Shown here: piece after piece, positions 11,109-19,772 of the stretch
How positions within the stretch are numbered: the stretch's first letter is position 1
How the letters are laid out: every line of letters starts with the position of its first letter
Source of the DNA: a virus
Length of the DNA stretch: 20,222 nucleotides
Reading direction: 5' to 3' (one strand)
Virus record (IMG/VR): IMGVR_UViG_3300030110_002260
Coordinates: 1 to 20,222 of that record
Notes under the pieces: model-generated
Told to the model about the DNA's origin: nothing
The model's input: the letters and a program-made list of their open reading frames with translations, nothing else
The model's database searches: none
Translations under genes and position numbers: made by a program

Positions 11109-11319
11109 ATCTTTGCCATACGAAAACAGGAGTAAGTTTTCCAACGTAAGATCCTAAGGTATTAAACGAAAAATAATCTAAAGCCTCATCAGGGTCCATG
11201 TCATGATCTCTAACAAGGATCTCTATGCACTTCTCTGCATCGTAAACAATAACATCCTCACTGCCACATCTACTTCCAATGCCTATAACAGCATCGTCAA
11301 ATCCATCTGCCTTTAACAC
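11062..11319 (-). CDS. Small hypothetical protein ending the replication operon (85 aa, GTG start)
   Basis: I chose the GTG at 11319: it shares one base with the polymerase stop (TAGTG) and has GGGGAG nine bases upstream, mirroring the TAATG couplings elsewhere. A TTG at 11337 would add six residues but has no such site. The protein reads LKADGFDDAVIGIGSRCG near the start and DEALDYFSFNTLGSYVGKLT at residues ~51-70, features I associate with a small conserved protein of many tailed phages with no known role. It is acidic, soluble and lacks a signal peptide. Its last 47 bases overlap the 3' end of the giant ejection gene on the other strand. Confidence 0.82.
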   Translation of the reverse strand: MLKADGFDDAVIGIGSRCGSEDVIVYDAEKCIEILVRDHDMDPDEALDYFSFNTLGSYVGKLTPVFVWQRSMKEIDDEQSLESLN

Positions 11320-13235
11320 TATCCTACTTCTCCCCAATTATCTCCGAGCTCCTCATCAACTTTAGAAGGGACCTTTAGAATATCATTAAGTCCATTCTCC
11401 ATCAACTCTGTTATTCGAGATGCCTGTTCTTTATCTTTTACAGAAAAACACAATTCATCATGAACCGTGAGCATAGGAACAAGACCCTCGTCGTAACAAT
11501 CCTTCATGGCTTTCTTTGTTTGATCTGCGGCAGACCCTTGTATAAGTTTGTTTAAAGCCTTGTAAGTAAACGCCCTTCTTAGACTCATGCCGTGTTCCTT
11601 CTGTGCTTGTTCCAAAGGTAAGGGTTTGTTGTATTCGTAGGTCCTTGGTTCCCATAAATGAAACCTACACTTACGCCCAAGTAACGTGCGTATAACTCCG
11701 TGGTTCTGTGCCTGGGAACTCGCCACGTCTGCCAGTCCTTTAACAAAGGGAACTTTTGTACGATGGGTGTCAAGTAATTCTTTTGCATCGTCCGGTGCAA
11801 TCGACAACTGATTCGCAAGTTTAGCTTTACCCATGCCATACATAATACCAAGGTTCACGGTCTTCGCTTCTTTTCTACTTATACCTGCAAAGTCTGCCAC
11901 CATCTGGTGCAAGTCAACGTCTCCCTTATGGTACTCTTCTACAATCTCATCGATCATATCATGACGACCAGCCACGCTTTTAGGTAGGCTGGCAGCAAAG
12001 TGAACCAAGAGCCTCGGTTCTTGACTTGAGTAATCAAAGGACCCCCACTTCTCTCCCTCCTCTGGTATAAACAAACCACGAATCATCTTCTTTATTTCAG
12101 GATCACGAGCCGGGATCTGTTGCAAGTTAGGATTAGAAGAAGAAAACCTACCTGTTACTGTGCCCCCATCATCAGAACGAAGCTGGTGAAATTCTGTATG
12201 TATTCTACCTTTGTGATTGTGACGAAGGATTGTTTCTATAAACGTACCATCTGCCTTATCAAACTCTCTTAGCTTAACTAACGCTTGGCACACTTCATGG
12301 GGGTGAGCATTAAGATATTGTTTTGTAAAAGATGGTGAGCCAGCCTCTGTCTTTGGATACTTTAGGTTCAAAGCCTCAAACATTTTTCTAACGGAAGCAC
12401 TTGCCCAGGGGTCTACGTCCACACTGGACTTATCTTTTATAAATGCTTTCAACTCCTTAGTCTTTTTTTGTAATCCCTTCTTAACCCTATCGGCCTTGTC
12501 GAGATCAACTCTTACACCGTTTGTTCTCATGTCCAACATCAAAGGAATTAAGGAAGTCTCAAGATTAAAGATAGACCAGAGATCCTGTGTATCGAGCTCA
12601 ATCTTCATTCGCTCCCACAACCGTAAGGTCATGACTGCATCTTGCTCGGCATAAGCACCAACATACTTGGGGGGCAGTCTCCACATCTCGGCCTTTGGAT
12701 CTATGCCCCAGTCCTTTGCAGCTGCCCGAAGCATCTTCTCGTCCTTACGCATATCAATGTAATCACGAGATACATTATTAAGGCTGTAAGAAAAACGGTT
12801 CTCGTTTACAACAGGGGCGGCAATCATGGTATCGATTATCTGTCCTTGAACCTCGATCCCTTCAGCCCGAAGCCACCCGGCATCATAGGTTGCATTGTGC
12901 ATAATCTTTTTTATATGCGGTGTTTCCATCTGTGCCTTCAGCCATTTCATTGTGATCTTTGGATCTAAGTTGTGTCCGTTCTCATGGCGTATGGGAAAGT
13001 ACCCTTGATAATCCCCGGCGGCTACAGCAACACCAACAATGTAGCCATCGTTTCTTACCCAGCCTGGACCAAGCGTTGTAATGTTTGGGTCTCTTGTTTC
13101 AAGATCAACGGCTATCTGTTTGTATTGTGTTAAGTCTGGGTACTCACTTGGTATATTCCAATCAGGTTCCAAGTAATCCATTTCCATACGTTCAAAAAAG
13201 TTGACCGTACTTTTATCATTTCTATTTCTCGCCAT
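11319..13235 (-). CDS. polA: Family A DNA polymerase with 3'-5' exonuclease (638 aa)
   Basis: This is the replicative or repair polymerase of the phage. The exonuclease motifs are DLET (D44, E46), HNATYDAGWL (D118) and YAEQD (Y195, D199). The polymerase motifs are A, FDYSSQEPRLL with D401; B, RKEAKTVNLGIMYG with R454, K458 and Y466; and C, VHDE with D593. All catalytic residues are present, and there is no 5' nuclease domain, as usual for phage enzymes. The position matching E. coli Phe762 is Leu462. No DnaJ-like CxxCxGxG insert is seen between the exonuclease and polymerase parts, unlike what is reported for phage HMO-2011. I chose ATG 13235 because GGGGAGG lies six bases upstream; an in-frame GTG at 13268 extends further into the upstream gene without a better site. 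It overlaps the DUF6378-like gene by 14 bases. Confidence 0.97.
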   Translation of the reverse strand: MARNRNDKSTVNFFERMEMDYLEPDWNIPSEYPDLTQYKQIAVDLETRDPNITTLGPGWVRNDGYIVGVAVAAGDYQGYFPIRHENGHNLDPKITMKWLKAQMETPHIKKIMHNATYDAGWLRAEGIEVQGQIIDTMIAAPVVNENRFSYSLNNVSRDYIDMRKDEKMLRAAAKDWGIDPKAEMWRLPPKYVGAYAEQDAVMTLRLWERMKIELDTQDLWSIFNLETSLIPLMLDMRTNGVRVDLDKADRVKKGLQKKTKELKAFIKDKSSVDVDPWASASVRKMFEALNLKYPKTEAGSPSFTKQYLNAHPHEVCQALVKLREFDKADGTFIETILRHNHKGRIHTEFHQLRSDDGGTVTGRFSSSNPNLQQIPARDPEIKKMIRGLFIPEEGEKWGSFDYSSQEPRLLVHFAASLPKSVAGRHDMIDEIVEEYHKGDVDLHQMVADFAGISRKEAKTVNLGIMYGMGKAKLANQLSIAPDDAKELLDTHRTKVPFVKGLADVASSQAQNHGVIRTLLGRKCRFHLWEPRTYEYNKPLPLEQAQKEHGMSLRRAFTYKALNKLIQGSAADQTKKAMKDCYDEGLVPMLTVHDELCFSVKDKEQASRITELMENGLNDILKVPSKVDEELGDNWGEVG

Positions 13236-13491
13236 GACATGCCTCCCCGAGAAGGGCACCATAGCCACAAATATCTATGGCACTATCCTCATGCGTTGGC
13301 GTTTCAATTAATCGGGAAAGTTTTACGGCAATCATACACATGTAAACTTGCTCAACAGTTACATCATGTCCTAGTAAAACCCTCCACATTTTAGCAATGC
13401 GTTCATGGTTAAGATACGCATCACCATAATCCTTGGCCCTTGGACCATTGATCATTCGCTCTGCCTCTTGTAGTATTTCATCTCTTTTCAT
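13222..13491 (-). CDS. DUF6378-like phage protein (89 aa)
   Basis: The sequence has INGPRAKDYGDAYLNHERIA, then KMWRVLLG, then VEQVYMCMIAVKLSRLIETP, and SAIDICGYGALLG. This matches my memory of the DUF6378 pattern: a DYGD loop, N-x-E-R-I-A-x-x-W, a helix with K-x-x-R, and D-x-x-GYG. The fold is likely all-helical and resembles that of nucleotide pyrophosphohydrolases in layout, but the metal-binding ExxE motifs of that group are not evident, so no reaction is assigned. The start overlaps the helicase stop by four bases (ATGA), and its end overlaps the polymerase start, placing it firmly in the replication operon. A nucleotide-metabolism or replication accessory role is an inference from context. 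Confidence 0.82.
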   Translation of the reverse strand: MKRDEILQEAERMINGPRAKDYGDAYLNHERIAKMWRVLLGHDVTVEQVYMCMIAVKLSRLIETPTHEDSAIDICGYGALLGEACHGEK

Positions 13492-15011
13492 ATTTCATAC
13501 CTGTATTTTTTATCTGTATCTACGATGTGTAGTGTCTTCCTTGCTCTGGTTATACCTACATAGAATGCTCGATGCTCGTCGTCTTGATTTTTTGTATTAA
13601 CGCAAGCGTATGTAGACCCAAGATACACGACACAGTTGTCGTCTTCCCCACCCTTCATGGCATGAAAGGTAGAAACTTTTATTCGTGGTGGTTTTGTAAT
13701 GTCCTCTCCTCTTCTCTCAAGTGCTCTTATATATAGTTTGTCATCAAACCCCATCTTAACAATGTCCATAGGCTCTCTATCTATTGGTGCAATCAAACCA
13801 AAGTCTGCAACCAGCTGATCATACCCCAACAGATCGTCGTCAGCAGCTGCATCTAACAGTGTTGTTGCTCCTCGCTTCACGACAGCGGCAGTCCCTTGCT
13901 TCGGTACGTTCCTATAAAACTTTCTTATCTGATCCATCGATACCCGGTTGCCGTCTTGTAGCTCCTCCCATGTCTCCATTGTTTCTGCAATCGCAGTGCT
14001 TAAAGAAGGGTGACCTTTATAACTGTAGAGATATCCATCGTCACGAAGCATGGACGCAAAGTCCCTTGCCATTTTATTTGTTCTTGCCATCAAGGTCCAC
14101 GAACCGTGGTTCAATGGTACATTATCAATGCTCATATGAAAGTGAACGGCACCCTCTTCTTTTGTTGGTTTAAATATCTTTGGCTTGCGTTTAAGGATAC
14201 GACGAACCACAGACTGTGATAAGGAATGTATACTCCGGGGCATACGATACGATTGATCTAAAACAATCACATTATCTGAACACTCCATAAATAAATTTAC
14301 ATCAACCCCGGTCCATCTATGAATAGCCTGGTCGTCATCCCCTGCAAAGACCACACGCTCTGCCGTTTCAGACATGTGATCAATCATGTTCCACTGCATG
14401 GGTGTTAAATCTTGAGCCTCATCAACAATCAATAGATCCAGAAAAGGAGGCGTTACTATTTCATACTTCTCTATAAGATCTGCAAAATCCATCTTGCTTG
14501 TTTCTTGTTTATACTTTTGTATCTCATTGTTTACCCGGACCAACATCCTATAGTTTATATCGTAGTCCTCTGACTCTTTAAACTCTTGCTCTAAAGGAAC
14601 ACACCTGTACCTTGCCTTGGTTATCATCCGTACATACTTACTGCCGTTGCCATCAAAGGTAGGAATAAGAATACCGTCGTCAGGAGACACGTTATCAACC
14701 CCATCAAAAATCATACCCAAGTTTTTACCAAGTTGTTTCCAATCATCCTTACCCAACATGTCTGTTGCCTGTAGTCCAAGCCCATGAAATGCAAGGGAAT
14801 GCATTGTCCTAAAGTATGGCATCTCTTTCTTTTCTAACTTAAACTCTGTACAAGCCCGGTCAACAGCTTCACCTATAGCTTTACGAGTAAAAGAAACAAA
14901 ACCTATCCTAGCCGGGGGTATCCCTTCCGCTAGTGCTTTTCTAACGTGATCTATTAAGGTATACGTCTTGCCGCAACCCGGAGGACCAAAGATAAGAGTA
15001 CTATTTTGCAT
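13488..15011 (-). CDS. UvrD/PcrA-like superfamily 1 DNA helicase (507 aa)
   Basis: This is an ATP-driven DNA-unwinding enzyme. Motifs in order are: I, GPPGCGKT (9-16); Ia, FVSFTRKA; II, DEAQD (197-201); III, GDDDQAI (224-230); IV, QSYRMP (253-258); V, STFHAMKGGE (447-456); and VI, VGITRARK (485-492). Motif order and the GDDDQAI and ITRARK forms identify the UvrD/Rep branch. At ~507 residues it is shorter than cellular UvrD (~720), so the 1B/2B insertions are reduced. I chose the ATG at 15011, with GGAG nine bases upstream; an in-frame GTG at 15026 would lie deeper in the upstream gene. It overlaps that gene by 11 bases and the next by 4. No DnaB-type helicase is seen in this window, so this may be the main fork helicase. 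Confidence 0.93.
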   Translation of the reverse strand: MQNSTLIFGPPGCGKTYTLIDHVRKALAEGIPPARIGFVSFTRKAIGEAVDRACTEFKLEKKEMPYFRTMHSLAFHGLGLQATDMLGKDDWKQLGKNLGMIFDGVDNVSPDDGILIPTFDGNGSKYVRMITKARYRCVPLEQEFKESEDYDINYRMLVRVNNEIQKYKQETSKMDFADLIEKYEIVTPPFLDLLIVDEAQDLTPMQWNMIDHMSETAERVVFAGDDDQAIHRWTGVDVNLFMECSDNVIVLDQSYRMPRSIHSLSQSVVRRILKRKPKIFKPTKEEGAVHFHMSIDNVPLNHGSWTLMARTNKMARDFASMLRDDGYLYSYKGHPSLSTAIAETMETWEELQDGNRVSMDQIRKFYRNVPKQGTAAVVKRGATTLLDAAADDDLLGYDQLVADFGLIAPIDREPMDIVKMGFDDKLYIRALERRGEDITKPPRIKVSTFHAMKGGEDDNCVVYLGSTYACVNTKNQDDEHRAFYVGITRARKTLHIVDTDKKYRYEI

Positions 15012-15222
15012 CCGTCTGTACTCCACGAGGACACTCGTCTAGCCACTCTTGTATCTTTTCCCTGTCCCACCTACTCGCACTACGCTTACCGTCGTCCTGG
15101 CCTAATATAATAGGCTCTGGAAACGTGCCGTCTTTAACATGTTCGTAGACCCAAGACCTGGATACACCAAGCCATTTTGTCACCTCTGATATTCTCATCA
15201 GATGTCTAGAAGGGTATGTCAT
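15001..15222 (-). CDS. AlpA/excisionase-like helix-turn-helix protein (73 aa)
   Basis: After a short lead the sequence reads MRISEVTKWLGVSRSWVYEH, then VKDGTFPEPIILG and SRWDREKIQEWL. This is the compact winged helix-turn-helix pattern of AlpA-type regulators and excisionases, which bind DNA as small dimers. The start at 15222 has a perfect AAGGAG seven bases upstream, inside the end of the primase gene, and overlaps it by 17 bases. No integrase is visible, so a role as transcriptional regulator or replication/architectural factor is more likely than excision. The face-to-face promoter region at 18254-18313 is one conceivable target, which is speculation. Confidence 0.88.
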   Translation of the reverse strand: MTYPSRHLMRISEVTKWLGVSRSWVYEHVKDGTFPEPIILGQDDGKRSASRWDREKIQEWLDECPRGVQTDAK

Positions 15223-16735
15223 CTAGTATCTCCTTTTCAGTTTCACCTTCATTCTCTTCAAACGATGGAACCCACCACACTCGTAGTTGGATTCTTTTGC
15301 CGTCTGCATTTCGGACGTTGTATCTACCAAAACATTCCTGTCCGTTATTCAAATGTTTTATTTGTTCTTGCACCTGGGCTCTTGAATAAGAAGTAAACCC
15401 ACGGTTCTTGAGGAACTGCATAAGTCCTGCAATCGTAAACCTTGTAAGACCCTCGTCTGTCCAAGGTTTGCCCATCTCCATTTCTTCAGGAGCCATAGCT
15501 TTAATCCGGCTCGTGCAATAAGTCTTCAACAGTTCTTTAAACTGCCCTGTTAAGGTTAACTCTTCTGGAACCTCGAGCTGTGTAGACTTATCCATCAGAA
15601 GACTAACCAACACCTGCCACTTCTGTGGCTTTACTGTAGGTGGCATGGTTTGGATCTGTTCCATACAAGCCCTCTGCCACAGCAGCTGGTTCTGTAGTTG
15701 CTCTGTCGATAGCTGCACCCGCTTGCCATTTACATCCATGAAGTATAACCGAGGTTCTGATAACATGATCGTCAGTCCCCCAAGGTCAGGGGTATCAGGA
15801 GCCGAGCTCCCAACACCAAAGGGCCGGGTCTTACATATATCTTTATCGCAGTGATCCTTCAGTGGACACACGTCACACTGATAAAAGTATTCTTTCTTTT
15901 GTAAGGACTCCTGTATCTGCACAATTTCTTTTGCGTCAAGAGAAGGAGAGCAAAGCATCCTGTTATATTCTTCATGGTGCTTTTTCCAATCGTCAGGCCA
16001 CTTGTATCGGCAGTATACCCCAACGGCAAACATAAAAATGTTTCTCATTTCACTGACGGGACCAAGACTTGATATGACCTCCAGGCAATATGGACCATCA
16101 ACAAAGTGTTCTCTCTTTCCGGCAAACTGAAAAGCGTTTAACTCAGACACAGAAATACGTTTCTTCTTAACAGCTTCAAAAAACTCGGCAAGGCTCATGG
16201 CTTCACCGTCCTTATTCAAACAGTACCTTGTTGTCAGGTCAGCCTTAAAGTATGGCATGTTAATAAAGTTTCCAACGTCACCACGATCCGCAAGTATCTT
16301 GTCCTGTTTTGGAAAAATCTCGCAGCCCGAATGTCCCAGGGTTATAGACATCTCTGTTAAATATTCTCGAACCAAAGACGCAGGTTCCCAATCCTTTAAA
16401 AACAAAAACAAATGGGCACCACCTGACTTGGATCGACATAACAACAAAGGAAGTTTTAATTTAAGTATCTTTTTATTTAAGCTCTTGTGATCAAGGTCAT
16501 AGGTATCAATGTCCAATGCTCCAAACTTACACATGTTATCCTGCGTTATAGGGATTGAACCAACGCCGTGTTTCCCATCTATGTGGGCTTGTACTTTATC
16601 CACGGTCAACGGCTCTCGAACCACGGTACTGTTGGCCTCGGTCTTACCATTACGACCAACACGTCCCAGTATCGTTTGACCGTGAGCGGCCTTTGATCCT
16701 TGAAATACTGTAAGCAACTGCTCTGCCTCAGACAT
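15206..16735 (-). CDS. Archaeo-eukaryotic-type primase with Cys cluster and SSB-like tail (509 aa)
   Basis: It is predicted to make primers on single-stranded DNA. Motif I is FGALDIDTYD with the metal-binding DxD (D75, D77). Motif II is SKSGGAHLFLF (104-114) with the nucleotide-contacting His108. A later GCEIFPKQD segment (137-145) fits the TOTE/polyvalent type of AEP primase. A helical PriCT-like region follows (~225-285). Then come four Cys (C287, C290, C296, C301; CX2CX5CX4C) that may hold zinc or an iron-sulphur cluster. The C-terminal ~170 residues are unassigned and end EILDDIPF, like the acidic peptide of bacterial SSB. The start has AGGAGG five bases upstream. The gene lies after the putative SSB and before the AlpA-like gene. 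A leading hairpin region may control its translation. Confidence 0.88.
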   Translation of the reverse strand: MSEAEQLLTVFQGSKAAHGQTILGRVGRNGKTEANSTVVREPLTVDKVQAHIDGKHGVGSIPITQDNMCKFGALDIDTYDLDHKSLNKKILKLKLPLLLCRSKSGGAHLFLFLKDWEPASLVREYLTEMSITLGHSGCEIFPKQDKILADRGDVGNFINMPYFKADLTTRYCLNKDGEAMSLAEFFEAVKKKRISVSELNAFQFAGKREHFVDGPYCLEVISSLGPVSEMRNIFMFAVGVYCRYKWPDDWKKHHEEYNRMLCSPSLDAKEIVQIQESLQKKEYFYQCDVCPLKDHCDKDICKTRPFGVGSSAPDTPDLGGLTIMLSEPRLYFMDVNGKRVQLSTEQLQNQLLWQRACMEQIQTMPPTVKPQKWQVLVSLLMDKSTQLEVPEELTLTGQFKELLKTYCTSRIKAMAPEEMEMGKPWTDEGLTRFTIAGLMQFLKNRGFTSYSRAQVQEQIKHLNNGQECFGRYNVRNADGKRIQLRVWWVPSFEENEGETEKEILDDIPF

Positions 16736-16740
16736 ATTCT

Positions 16741-16785
16741 CCTCCTAATATATTCGGGGAGAGGAGGAATCATGAACCTCTCCCC
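16741..16785 (-). promoter_or_regulatory. Alternative hairpins before the primase start
   Basis: The gap between the putative SSB stop and the primase ATG holds a perfect 9-bp inverted repeat, GGGGAGAGG/CCTCTCCCC (16777-16785 with 16756-16764, 12-base loop). On the - strand the 3' arm overlaps TCCTCCT (16768-16762), which is perfectly complementary to the primase ribosome-binding site AGGAGGA (16746-16740). The two pairings share bases and so exclude each other. No T run follows the first hairpin (GAATATATT), so it is not a standard terminator. A translational switch or attenuator is inferred. Confidence 0.5.
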
Positions 16786-16798
16786 AAGACAGCGTGGT

Positions 16799-17623
16799 TT
16801 AAAACGGTATTTCGTCACCGTCGTTAGAAGTATCGGGGGAGGAACCCTGACCTCCTACTGCCTTATTCTCGTGCTCCGGATCTGGAACAGCTTTAACATC
16901 ACCAGCAGCTATGGCTTTACGAAAAGTCATTGCCTCTTGCAATAAGTCTTTGCTTTCAACAAGACCCACTCTCTCTACAGCATAGTTATTCCAAGATCCC
17001 TTGTCGTTACTCTCTTCCGTAGTGTTAAGTTTCCAAACAGTAGCAAACACAGCAGGTGTTACCATCTTACCTGTCTTTGGATGCTTGACCTTTTGCATGG
17101 CAATCATAGTCTTCCACCGACGACCAACCTTTAACTGAGATGATTTCATATCAATCACGGCTGGTTGCCATGATCCATCTTCATCAACAACAAGGCAATA
17201 AGTCTGGTCAGAACGAACAACCTCATTCTTATTCGGTAGGATCTCACTGCTTCCTTGTCTTTCTGTTCTTTGCAAGACCGGATCAGTTGGTGATATCTCT
17301 CCTTTAAATCCACCCCCCTGATCTCTAGGAGTAAACTCAAGATACTTTGTTGTCTGGTAACAAGGAACAACATTAATTCCTTTCTCACCATCCCAGTACT
17401 GAGATGTTACCGTATTGTAAATGCCACCTATTTCTGCCCCCTCAATGTACTCAGGCTGTTTTTTATTAATGTGTGGCGAGGTGTTCTGGATAATACGAAT
17501 AAAAGGTATCTGCATTTCTGAGCTGTCAAAGGTTGCACCTTCTCCAGCAGTCTCAAAAATATCATCCATTACATCTGTGGAAACGTCTGTGCCCTTGGGC
17601 TTATCTAAATCTTTAGTGCTCAT
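16799..17623 (-). CDS. Putative single-stranded DNA-binding protein (274 aa)
   Basis: There is no clear family signature, but the profile fits a phage ssDNA-binding protein: a beta-rich body of ~220 residues with aromatic and basic residues (INVVPCYQTTKYLEFTPRD, RRWKTMIAMQKVKHPKTGKM, PAVFATVWKLNTT), then a disordered Gly/Ser/Asp tail ending DTSNDGDEIPF. That last peptide closely matches the bacterial SSB C-terminus (DDDIPF), which recruits replication and repair proteins. The N-terminus is acidic (DDIFETAGEGATFDSSEM). The start overlaps the upstream stop by four bases (ATGA), with AAGGA seven bases upstream. The following gene is the primase. It could instead be a recombination mediator or an unrelated replication accessory protein. 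Confidence 0.7.
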   Translation of the reverse strand: MSTKDLDKPKGTDVSTDVMDDIFETAGEGATFDSSEMQIPFIRIIQNTSPHINKKQPEYIEGAEIGGIYNTVTSQYWDGEKGINVVPCYQTTKYLEFTPRDQGGGFKGEISPTDPVLQRTERQGSSEILPNKNEVVRSDQTYCLVVDEDGSWQPAVIDMKSSQLKVGRRWKTMIAMQKVKHPKTGKMVTPAVFATVWKLNTTEESNDKGSWNNYAVERVGLVESKDLLQEAMTFRKAIAAGDVKAVPDPEHENKAVGGQGSSPDTSNDGDEIPF

Positions 17624-18228
17624 GTCACCGTCCTTTTTATTGTTGCAGCGTTGGCTAGAAATCCAGAAAACAAATCAAGATCGATAGGCTTCCCATCTTC
17701 TACATGTCTTTTAATAACTGATTTAAGAGAGGGAGGAGGTACATGAACCTTTCTCTGCGGATAAAAACCTTTCTCTTCCAGAATACCAACGACATTTCCT
17801 GCAAGATTATCTTCACCCATACTAAAAGAAACAATAACATCGTTCTTTATTTTTTCTCCATAACCATTTTCACGAAGCCAAGAAAAACATTGCTCACGTT
17901 TTGCAACGCACTCACGTCTTTCTGTCTCACTCATCTTATCATTCAACGAGGGTATCGATGCACTTACCACCGTCCTTCGTCCAACACTAAGACCTTTGAG
18001 TTTTATGCCCTCAGTTTCTCCCATTTCATCCATAAGATTCGGTATGGTTTCCATCTCGAGCTGATGCTTCTCTTTTTTCTTCTCACTTAACTCACTCTCT
18101 AACTTCGCAATGTCGTCATTAATTTGATCCACCCGGACAGCCAGCTGGCTTAAAGACTTCATTCCTTCTACACTCACGTTCTTTAAAGCATCTGCCTTAT
18201 CAAACATGTCTTCAAAAATATCATTCAT
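17620..18228 (-). CDS. Coiled-coil hypothetical protein, first gene of the replication operon (202 aa)
   Basis: I chose the ATG at 18228 (MNDIFEDMF) because AGAGGA lies seven bases upstream; a longer TTG-start form from 18264 would use weak codons and no good site. Residues ~28-65 form a likely coiled coil (VDQINDDIAKLESELSEKKK). Then come IKLKGLSVGRRTVVSASIPS and a C-terminal half with FSWLRENGYGEKIKNDVIVS and basic surfaces (ISPQRK-like, SLKSVIKRHVEDGK). I do not recognise a named family with certainty. It is first in the operon, closest to the promoter, and coupled to the putative SSB gene by ATGA, so a DNA-associated or replication-accessory role is plausible. No enzyme motif is visible. 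Confidence 0.82.
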   Translation of the reverse strand: MNDIFEDMFDKADALKNVSVEGMKSLSQLAVRVDQINDDIAKLESELSEKKKEKHQLEMETIPNLMDEMGETEGIKLKGLSVGRRTVVSASIPSLNDKMSETERRECVAKREQCFSWLRENGYGEKIKNDVIVSFSMGEDNLAGNVVGILEEKGFYPQRKVHVPPPSLKSVIKRHVEDGKPIDLDLFSGFLANAATIKRTVT

Positions 18229-18253
18229 AAGTATGTCCTCTTCAGAATTGTGA

Positions 18254-18282
18254 TTGACACACAAGTTTGCATGTCGTAAAAA
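18254..18282 (+). promoter_or_regulatory. Candidate sigma70-type promoter for the SNF2 gene
   Basis: A perfect -35 TTGACA (18254-18259) is followed after exactly 17 bases by TAAAAA (18277-18282), a weak -10. Transcription would start near 18289, leaving about 14 bases before the ATG at 18303 with GGGAG inside. A 5-bp inverted repeat TTGTG/CACAA (18248-18252 and 18260-18264) brackets the -35 exactly and could be an operator. Confidence 0.5.
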
Positions 18283-18283
18283 G

Positions 18284-18313
18284 ACTATAAAGGGAGAACT
18301 GGATGACTGTCAA
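18284..18313 (-). promoter_or_regulatory. Candidate sigma70-type promoter for the replication operon
   Basis: On the - strand a perfect TTGACA (18313-18308, inside the first codons of the SNF2 gene) is followed after 18 bases by TATAGT (18289-18284), five of six matches to the -10 consensus. The start would fall near 18277, giving a ~49-base leader before the ATG at 18228. It overlaps the start region of the rightward promoter. Confidence 0.62.
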
Positions 18314-19772
18314 CTACAAATTTAAAACTATACCATATAAACATCAACAGACTGCATTGGACAAATGTGGAGACAATAAATGTTTTGGTTTGTTTATGGA
18401 AATGGGTACTGGTAAGTCAAAGGTTTTAATAGATAATCTTGGGATGTTATTTTGCAAAGGTAAGGTAAACTTTGCTCTAATTATAGCACCAAAGGGGGTA
18501 TATAGAAATTGGGTTGAGAAAGAAATACCGCAACATCTATCCGATAGCGTACCATACAGGGTGATTCGCTGGGTATCTAGTGCCAACAAAAAACAAACAG
18601 AAGAAATGAGGTCCGTAAAGGATACGTTCTCCGGCCTTACTATCTTTGTTATGAATGTCGAAGCCTTCTCCACACTCAAAGGAAAGAATGCCGGAGAATG
18701 GATGGCAAAGAATTATGGACCGCACGGCATGATTGTTGTTGACGAATCAACTTCGATTAAAAACCACAAGGCTAAACGAACCAAGAGCCTCATTAAGATA
18801 GCTGAAAGTTTTGATTATACTAGAATACTGACAGGATCTCCAGTAACAAACTCACCTTTAGATATTTATGCACAGACCGAGTTCCTTAGACCTGGGCTCT
18901 TGGGTTTTGATTCGTATTGGGCATTCCAGGCACGGTATGCAGTCACGCAAAATGTAAAAATGGGGGCACATTCTTTCACTCAGATCAGAGGGTATCGAAA
19001 CTTGGACGATCTGCAATGGAGACTTGATAAGTTTTCATACCGTGTTCTTAAGAAAGATTGTTTGGATCTGCCTGAGAAAACTTTTACTTCACGGTATGTT
19101 ACATTAAGTGACAAGCAACATGATTGGTATCAAAGAATTAAACGAGAAGCTATGATCCTACTTGACAATGGTGATCTTGTGACAGCCCCGGCAGTCATTA
19201 CACAGATGCTTCGATTGCAACAAATACTTTCCGGTCACATTAAGACAGATGATGGTGACGTTGTATCCATACCAACCAAAAGACTTGAGGCCGTCACCGA
19301 TATTCTAGATGAGAGCAGTAGCAAGGCTATTATATGGTCTCGGTTTAGGCACGACATTGTATCTATTACAAGTGAGCTCAATAAAAAGTATGGGACAGGT
19401 AGTGCCGCAGCTTATTTCGGGGATACATCTGACGATGAACGCAATAGAATTGTAAGAGATTTTCAAGATCCTAAATCAAAGCTGCGATATCTAATTGGCA
19501 ATCCATCAACAGCGGGTTACGGCTTGACTTTAACAGAGGCTAACCTTGTGATATATTATGCTAATGACTTTAACCTAGCTACTCGAATGCAAAGTGAAGA
19601 CCGAGCTCATAGAATTGGTCAGAACAACCCGGTTACTTATGTTGATCTCATATGTGAGGGTACGATAGACGAAAAAATAGTTAGTGCATTGCAAGCTAAG
19701 ATAGATATTAGTGCTAAGGTATTAGGAGAAGAGGTACGAGAATGGCTAAATCTAAAACCAACCCGAAGCTAG
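18303..19772 (+). CDS. SNF2-type superfamily 2 helicase/translocase (489 aa)
   Basis: This is a DNA-dependent ATPase of the SNF2 branch. Motifs are: Q-like PYKHQQTAL (11-19); I, MEMGTGKS (32-39); Ia, IAPKGVYRNW (61-70); II, DEST (147-150, in place of DEAH); III, LTGSP (176-180); then IV-like KAIIWSRFRHD (341-351); V, STAGYGLTLTEANLVIYY (402-419); and VI, RMQSEDRAHRIGQ (428-440). Both RecA-like lobes are complete, and there is no extra chromatin-type domain, as usual for phage members. GGGAG lies six bases before the ATG. It is divergent from the replication operon and overlaps the next gene by 31 bases. Likely roles are fork remodelling, recombination or clearing proteins from DNA; the exact role is unknown. 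Confidence 0.95.
   Translation: MTVNYKFKTIPYKHQQTALDKCGDNKCFGLFMEMGTGKSKVLIDNLGMLFCKGKVNFALIIAPKGVYRNWVEKEIPQHLSDSVPYRVIRWVSSANKKQTEEMRSVKDTFSGLTIFVMNVEAFSTLKGKNAGEWMAKNYGPHGMIVVDESTSIKNHKAKRTKSLIKIAESFDYTRILTGSPVTNSPLDIYAQTEFLRPGLLGFDSYWAFQARYAVTQNVKMGAHSFTQIRGYRNLDDLQWRLDKFSYRVLKKDCLDLPEKTFTSRYVTLSDKQHDWYQRIKREAMILLDNGDLVTAPAVITQMLRLQQILSGHIKTDDGDVVSIPTKRLEAVTDILDESSSKAIIWSRFRHDIVSITSELNKKYGTGSAAAYFGDTSDDERNRIVRDFQDPKSKLRYLIGNPSTAGYGLTLTEANLVIYYANDFNLATRMQSEDRAHRIGQNNPVTYVDLICEGTIDEKIVSALQAKIDISAKVLGEEVREWLNLKPTRS

Follow-up and report, generated by a model that had tools for sequence, protein, structure and literature searches.

Gene content of the replication block

The window (the whole stretch of 20,222 nucleotides that was analyzed) contains a block of replication genes on its minus strand which, based on open reading frames and Pfam matches, is ordered as DUF7307 protein, OB-fold protein, primase, AlpA-like HTH protein, UvrD-like helicase, DUF6378 protein, and family A DNA polymerase. 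The DUF7307 (Pam3 gp33-like) gene (positions 17620 to 18264; Pfam PF23984, 8.4e-19) lies directly upstream of the OB-fold gene; it is also found near the SSB gene in another locus, L425, and is a conserved neighbor. Downstream of the primase gene are those for the 73-aa AlpA-like HTH protein (15001 to 15222; Phage_AlpA, 6.5e-9), the UvrD-like SF1 helicase (13488 to 15026; UvrD-helicase, 5.2e-24), and the family A DNA polymerase with its 3'-5' exonuclease (11319 to 13268; DNA_pol_A, 9.9e-61). An SNF2-type SF2 helicase is encoded on the opposite, plus strand (18303 to 19772; SNF2-rel_dom, 3.1e-22). In other primase clades, a UvrD- or helicase-annotated gene is close downstream of the primase gene; in the loci L206, L207, and L211 to L216, which belong to another clade than the window, the end of the primase gene has the same 17-nt overlap with the next gene as in the window (see below), and that next gene encodes a UvrD-like helicase instead of AlpA.

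The primase (15206 to 16735, minus strand, 509 aa) is an AEP-family enzyme (Prim-Pol), with matches to Pfam AEP-TOTE (PF22548, 8.8e-16) and to the primase family phrog_21866 (1.2e-79). Its AlphaFold model (pLDDT 87) consists of an AEP domain (residues ~1 to 204), a cysteine-rich region (~285 to 307) that probably binds Zn, a winged-helix-like region (~389 to 496), and a disordered tail (496 to 509). The AEP fold has both the DxD and the SGGxH motifs, of which D75, D77, and SGG..H108 are invariant, as are three cysteines of the cysteine-rich region (C287, C296, and C301). The Prim-Pol domain is structurally closest to CRISPR-associated Prim-Pol (CAPP), with a Z value of 20.8 over 190 residues, and CAPP was also the only relative of the primase detected in a sequence search of the PDB. 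The winged-helix-like region matches 2ipq (STY4665), which is also the template for the winged-helix domain of PolpTN2-like primases (PMC5862659).

The protein encoded upstream of the primase (16799 to 17623, minus strand, 274 aa, with a disordered C-terminal tail) matches Pam3_Gp34 (PF23977, 4.4e-65) and no other Pfam family, including the bacterial SSB profile PF00436. Its AlphaFold model (pLDDT 85) has an OB-type fold. Neither the PDB sequence search nor Foldseek alone gave a significant PDB match for this protein, and VIA-align matched it to the phiC31 recombination directionality factor, to BRCA2 OB folds, to T4/RB69 gp32, and then to many SSBs (Z 3 to 4). The T4 gp32 match has a Z value of ~6.3 over 157 residues with an rmsd of 4.6, which is below the guide value of Z 8. 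Because these Z values are middling, we infer rather than conclude that the gp34-like protein is a phage SSB; this is helped by its gene position and by a search of 15 related records, several of which are incomplete, that yielded no canonical SSB (PF00436). The original prediction of an ssDNA-binding protein at this locus is therefore plausible. The best match of the gp34-like model is the phiC31 factor (9teh_I, Z 8.4, 155 residues), which hints at a possible relationship between phage OB-fold SSB-like proteins and this factor.

Direct reading of the sequence shows that the primase ends in EILDDIPF followed by the stop codon at 15206 to 15208, with the DDIPF codons at 15209 to 15223, and that the putative SSB ends in SNDGDEIPF followed by a stop codon, with these codons at 16802 to 16828 (both on the minus strand). 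Both proteins thus have, at their extreme C terminus, the acidic residues and I/L/V-P-F that define an SSB-Ct type tip. In both, the tip follows a linker predicted to be disordered, with pLDDT values of <50 at residues 256 to 268 of the putative SSB and 496 to 507 of the primase in AlphaFold models that are otherwise confident. The original prediction had placed two SSB-type tails at two positions in this region; both tails are present, but the positions had been assigned to the wrong proteins, with their order swapped. It had also treated a tail of this type as expected on an SSB. The upstream protein is plausibly an SSB, but it is outside the bacterial SSB family, and for this reason its tail looks convergent too.

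Conservation and coding constraint at the primase tip

We compared the primase and OB-fold protein with those of 80 loci from viral contigs in which the primase is 58 to 100% identical to that of the window. Among the 79 complete primases at least 58% identical to the window's, 78 end in [IV]PF and 77 have D or E at position -4; the sole exception to the [IV]PF end, in L064, is a frame that stops early, near residue 486. The neighboring OB-fold protein ends in [IV]PF in 73 of 74 cases, and the exception (L005) is a truncated frame. In 18 primase representatives, P and F are 100% conserved, the residue before P is either I (83%) or V, and 89% have an acidic residue at position -8, while many positions of the linker are down at 17 to 44% conservation, which is the pattern of a variable linker before a fixed tip. 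The original prediction had named absence of the tail from most close primase homologues as grounds for rejecting it. This is clearly not the case, as the tip is near invariant and, as described below, is selected at the protein level.

The tips are not a product of chance. Based on residue frequencies, an [ILV]PF end is expected with a probability of 3.4e-4 and a [DE][ILV]PF end with a probability of 4e-5, and among 546 other ORF clusters of the same contigs, none ends in PF and only 15 (2.7%) end in F. We conclude that the primase tip is genuine. We also considered whether there is a third tailed protein. A scan of ten close-relative contigs (~390 kb) for [IV]PF followed by a stop codon matched the SSB-primase pair plus scattered sites, and the scattered matches read in four of the ten contigs are frames of 13 to 43 codons that are not genes.

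The codons of the primase tip are also the start of the next gene, in a dual-coding overlap of 17 nt (15206 to 15222, minus strand), and in the window's clade the ATG of the AlpA-like gene sits within the two acidic codons of the primase. It could therefore be that the tip sequence is a by-product, retained solely for the sake of the overlapping downstream gene, whose start it encodes. In favor of this, the 17-nt overlap with the ATG of the next gene persists in most members of the window's clade and in several of the IPF-ended primases of the ct3Et533 clade, the ATG is contained in the D/N-D/E codons, and the Phe codon of the primase is always TTC. However, the codons for Ile (ATA, ATT, or ATC, or GTT, GTC, or GTG where Val replaces it) and for Pro (CCC, CCT, CCA, or CCG) vary in their third base. 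The primase sequence is left unchanged or changed conservatively by this variation, which at the same time alters residues 3 (Y/F/S) and 4 (P/L/H/R) of the AlpA-like protein. The fact that I/V-P-F is kept while the overlapping protein is altered indicates that selection acts on the primase frame. In addition, there are tips without any overlap, in L181 (KIPF), L196 (GDIPF), and L223 (GDIPY), and the downstream gene is not constant, encoding either AlpA or UvrD. Some of the D/N-D/E pattern can be put down to the overlap, as perhaps can the invariable TTC codon, but I-P-F cannot, and a by-product origin is largely refuted and retains hardly any probability.

Tips in other clades and in bacterial islands

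More distant primases (~24 to 39% identical to that of the window) were collected from four further viral-contig scans and from nine annotated phage records, and the tips of both proteins differ between their clades. In the DSL-LC04 clade, the primase tip is SPF, often after basic residues, and the SSB tip is xPF; in the psg01 clade, the primase ends in ENF or similar and the SSB in TPY; in PSA28 and JeffCo, the primase tip is SEF; and in the ct3Et533 clade, primase tips are a mixture of xIF, xVF, TPF, and several IPF. In the HTVC023P clade, the primase has the end HTGKFRT without an SSB-type tail, beside an SSB ending in VPF or TPF, and in Nanhaivirus the primase also has no such tail, beside an SSB ending in VPF or IPF. 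The HTVC023P-clade primases of L088 and L230 to L309 mostly share a different conserved terminal motif, MDD[DE][FY]HTGKFRT. In L214, where the primase ends in TPFN, a long ORF (~496 aa) downstream of it ends in LVEDVPY, which is also an acidic-Pro-aromatic end.

Of the 45 primase representatives, 28 have a terminal F; these include 15 that end in PF, of which 10 end in [ILV]PF. The F end in 28 of 45 primases versus 15 of 546 other ORF clusters gives a Fisher p of 1.5e-25, a value that is not corrected for relatedness. Both proteins have an aromatic end in 24 of 42 SSB-primase pairs. The two tips can be unmatched within one genome, as in L211 (primase DEIPF, SSB KEHF) and L222 (SSB DDIPF, primase GGDSF), and a phylogenetic test for joint change of the two tips had just 5 independent pairs to draw on.

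In a tree built without the tails, the canonical IPF tip occurs in all 17 rows from the window's clade and in several separate places in the ct3Et533 clade. Similar tips are also present on AEP-helicase proteins of three islands in alphaproteobacterial genomes, which end in DEDIPF (L411 and L418) and DEDLPF (L416). Two of these genes (L416 and L418) adjoin phage-type (tyrosine) integrases, and no gp34-like SSB gene was seen near the AEP-helicase in any of the three stretches. The island tips are sporadic, with relatives mostly lacking the tip (e.g., L414, L434, and L435). This distribution suggests that the canonical IPF tip recurs, having arisen independently more than once, including on island AEP-helicases.

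Possible docking partners and comparison with known systems

A primase tip that is real and selected suggests a docking site at the replication fork common to the primase and the SSB. The reading we favor, tentatively, is that the two proteins share a C-terminal docking peptide and most likely one pocket on a phage replication protein. The primase tail would be a docking peptide of the bacterial SSB type, with a free carboxylate and a flexible linker, and the phage OB-fold SSB would have a peptide of the same kind. We infer that both tips may dock in one pocket on the phage family A polymerase or the UvrD-like helicase, the two candidate tail-binding partners in the block (the SNF2-type helicase is a weaker candidate), so that primase and SSB would be held at the fork and would alternate on this partner as primers are made and handed over. 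There is precedent for such sharing in phage T7, in which the SSB gp2.5 has an acidic tail similar to that of the primase-helicase gp4, for the same region of the T7 polymerase. The gp4 tail needs its terminal Phe and its acidity for polymerase binding and contacts basic patches of the polymerase (PMC12230644, PMC12593628), and the pockets that bind SSB-Ct grip the side chain and carboxylate of the terminal Phe, with basic residues to accommodate the acidic stretch (PMC10238739). The drift of the tips between clades away from the host-type sequence favors a partner that is phage encoded and co-evolves with them. Against shared docking, the HTVC023P and Nanhaivirus primases are tailless though the SSB keeps its tip, and the unmatched tips of L211 and L222 mean that primase and SSB need not share one pocket.

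It is also conceivable, but on balance unlikely, that the tail of the primase is a mimic of host SSB that docks on host SSB-interacting proteins (e.g., Pol III chi, PriA, RecQ, RNase HI, or RecO), which would be recruited to the phage fork or displaced from host SSB. The tip of the window's clade is the canonical host sequence, the island AEP-helicases have canonical tips with no gp34-like SSB found in their neighborhood, and in L206 and L211 to L215 a canonical primase tip is found beside a noncanonical tip on the phage's own SSB; these canonical tips favor host pockets in at least some cases. However, conserved host SSB pockets fit poorly with the variation in sister clades, where primase tips have drifted to SPF with basic residues, ENF, SEF, and xIF, and the tips of the islands are sporadic. 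Less probable still is that the primase tail docks in the OB-fold groove of the phage SSB, which would either loosen the SSB's hold on the template or bring the primase onto DNA coated with SSB. Acidic SSB tails compete with ssDNA for the OB fold in T7 gp2.5 and E. coli SSB, and this groove is probably where an SSB keeps its own acidic tail. Competition of this kind, together with the adjacency of the SSB and primase genes in most loci and the acidic-aromatic tips on both proteins, is compatible with groove docking, but it leaves the strict retention of the Pro-Phe tip unexplained, and the HTVC023P and Nanhaivirus primases do without a tip beside a tailed SSB.

Whether the shared partner is of phage or host origin, a more general proposal, which we regard as possible though speculative, is that the AEP primases of phages and integrated elements have repeatedly and independently gained SSB-type tips as an add-on. 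The primase would then be a second SSB-like hub in the SSB docking network, competing with SSB for the same pockets, which is the inverse of the arrangement in E. coli, where the primase holds the pocket.

Docking tips and primase-SSB coupling are both of known kinds, while the literature searched, subscription papers aside, has no description of an AEP primase with an SSB-type Pro-Phe tip; the paper on the PrimPol-PV1 families, for example, makes no mention of an SSB-type tail (PMC5862659). Like CAPP and the PrimPol-PV1 primases of mobile elements, the window's primase has the AEP catalytic fold, although CAPP serves CRISPR systems, and like PrimQH it has the AEP-Zn-winged helix layout, with a winged-helix domain similar to STY4665 (2ipq). 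If the gp34-like protein is an SSB, the tail points to a role for a "hypothetical" but widespread phage family: in the phage collection, 503 records match the window's gp34-like protein. The replisomes of phage AEP primases have received little study, and the tail also gives a simple and testable entry to the question of how these primases are recruited to SSB-coated DNA.

Compared with E. coli SSB-Ct (MDFDDDIPF), the tips described here have the same acidic residues followed by I-P-F at the extreme C terminus after a disordered linker, and the window's clade has the acidic residue at -8 and D or E at -4. The difference is that here the tip is on an AEP primase, and that the phage SSB sharing it has an OB fold and belongs to the Pam3 gp34 family, not to the bacterial SSB family. 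As in the contact between E. coli DnaG and SSB, a primase is tied to the SSB-tail interaction system, but DnaG holds the pocket and SSB the tail, whereas here the tail is on the primase. The closest parallel is T7 gp4, which is also a primase-containing protein with an acidic, Phe-ended tail; polymerase docking has been demonstrated for the gp4 tail, and the comparison made here is one of tail anatomy. In contrast to gp4, in which a DnaG/TOPRIM-type primase is fused to a hexameric helicase, the window's primase is an AEP enzyme that lacks a helicase, has Zn and winged-helix regions, and ends in a Pro-Phe tip of the SSB type. The shared-tail logic of T7 would thereby be extended to a different primase fold.
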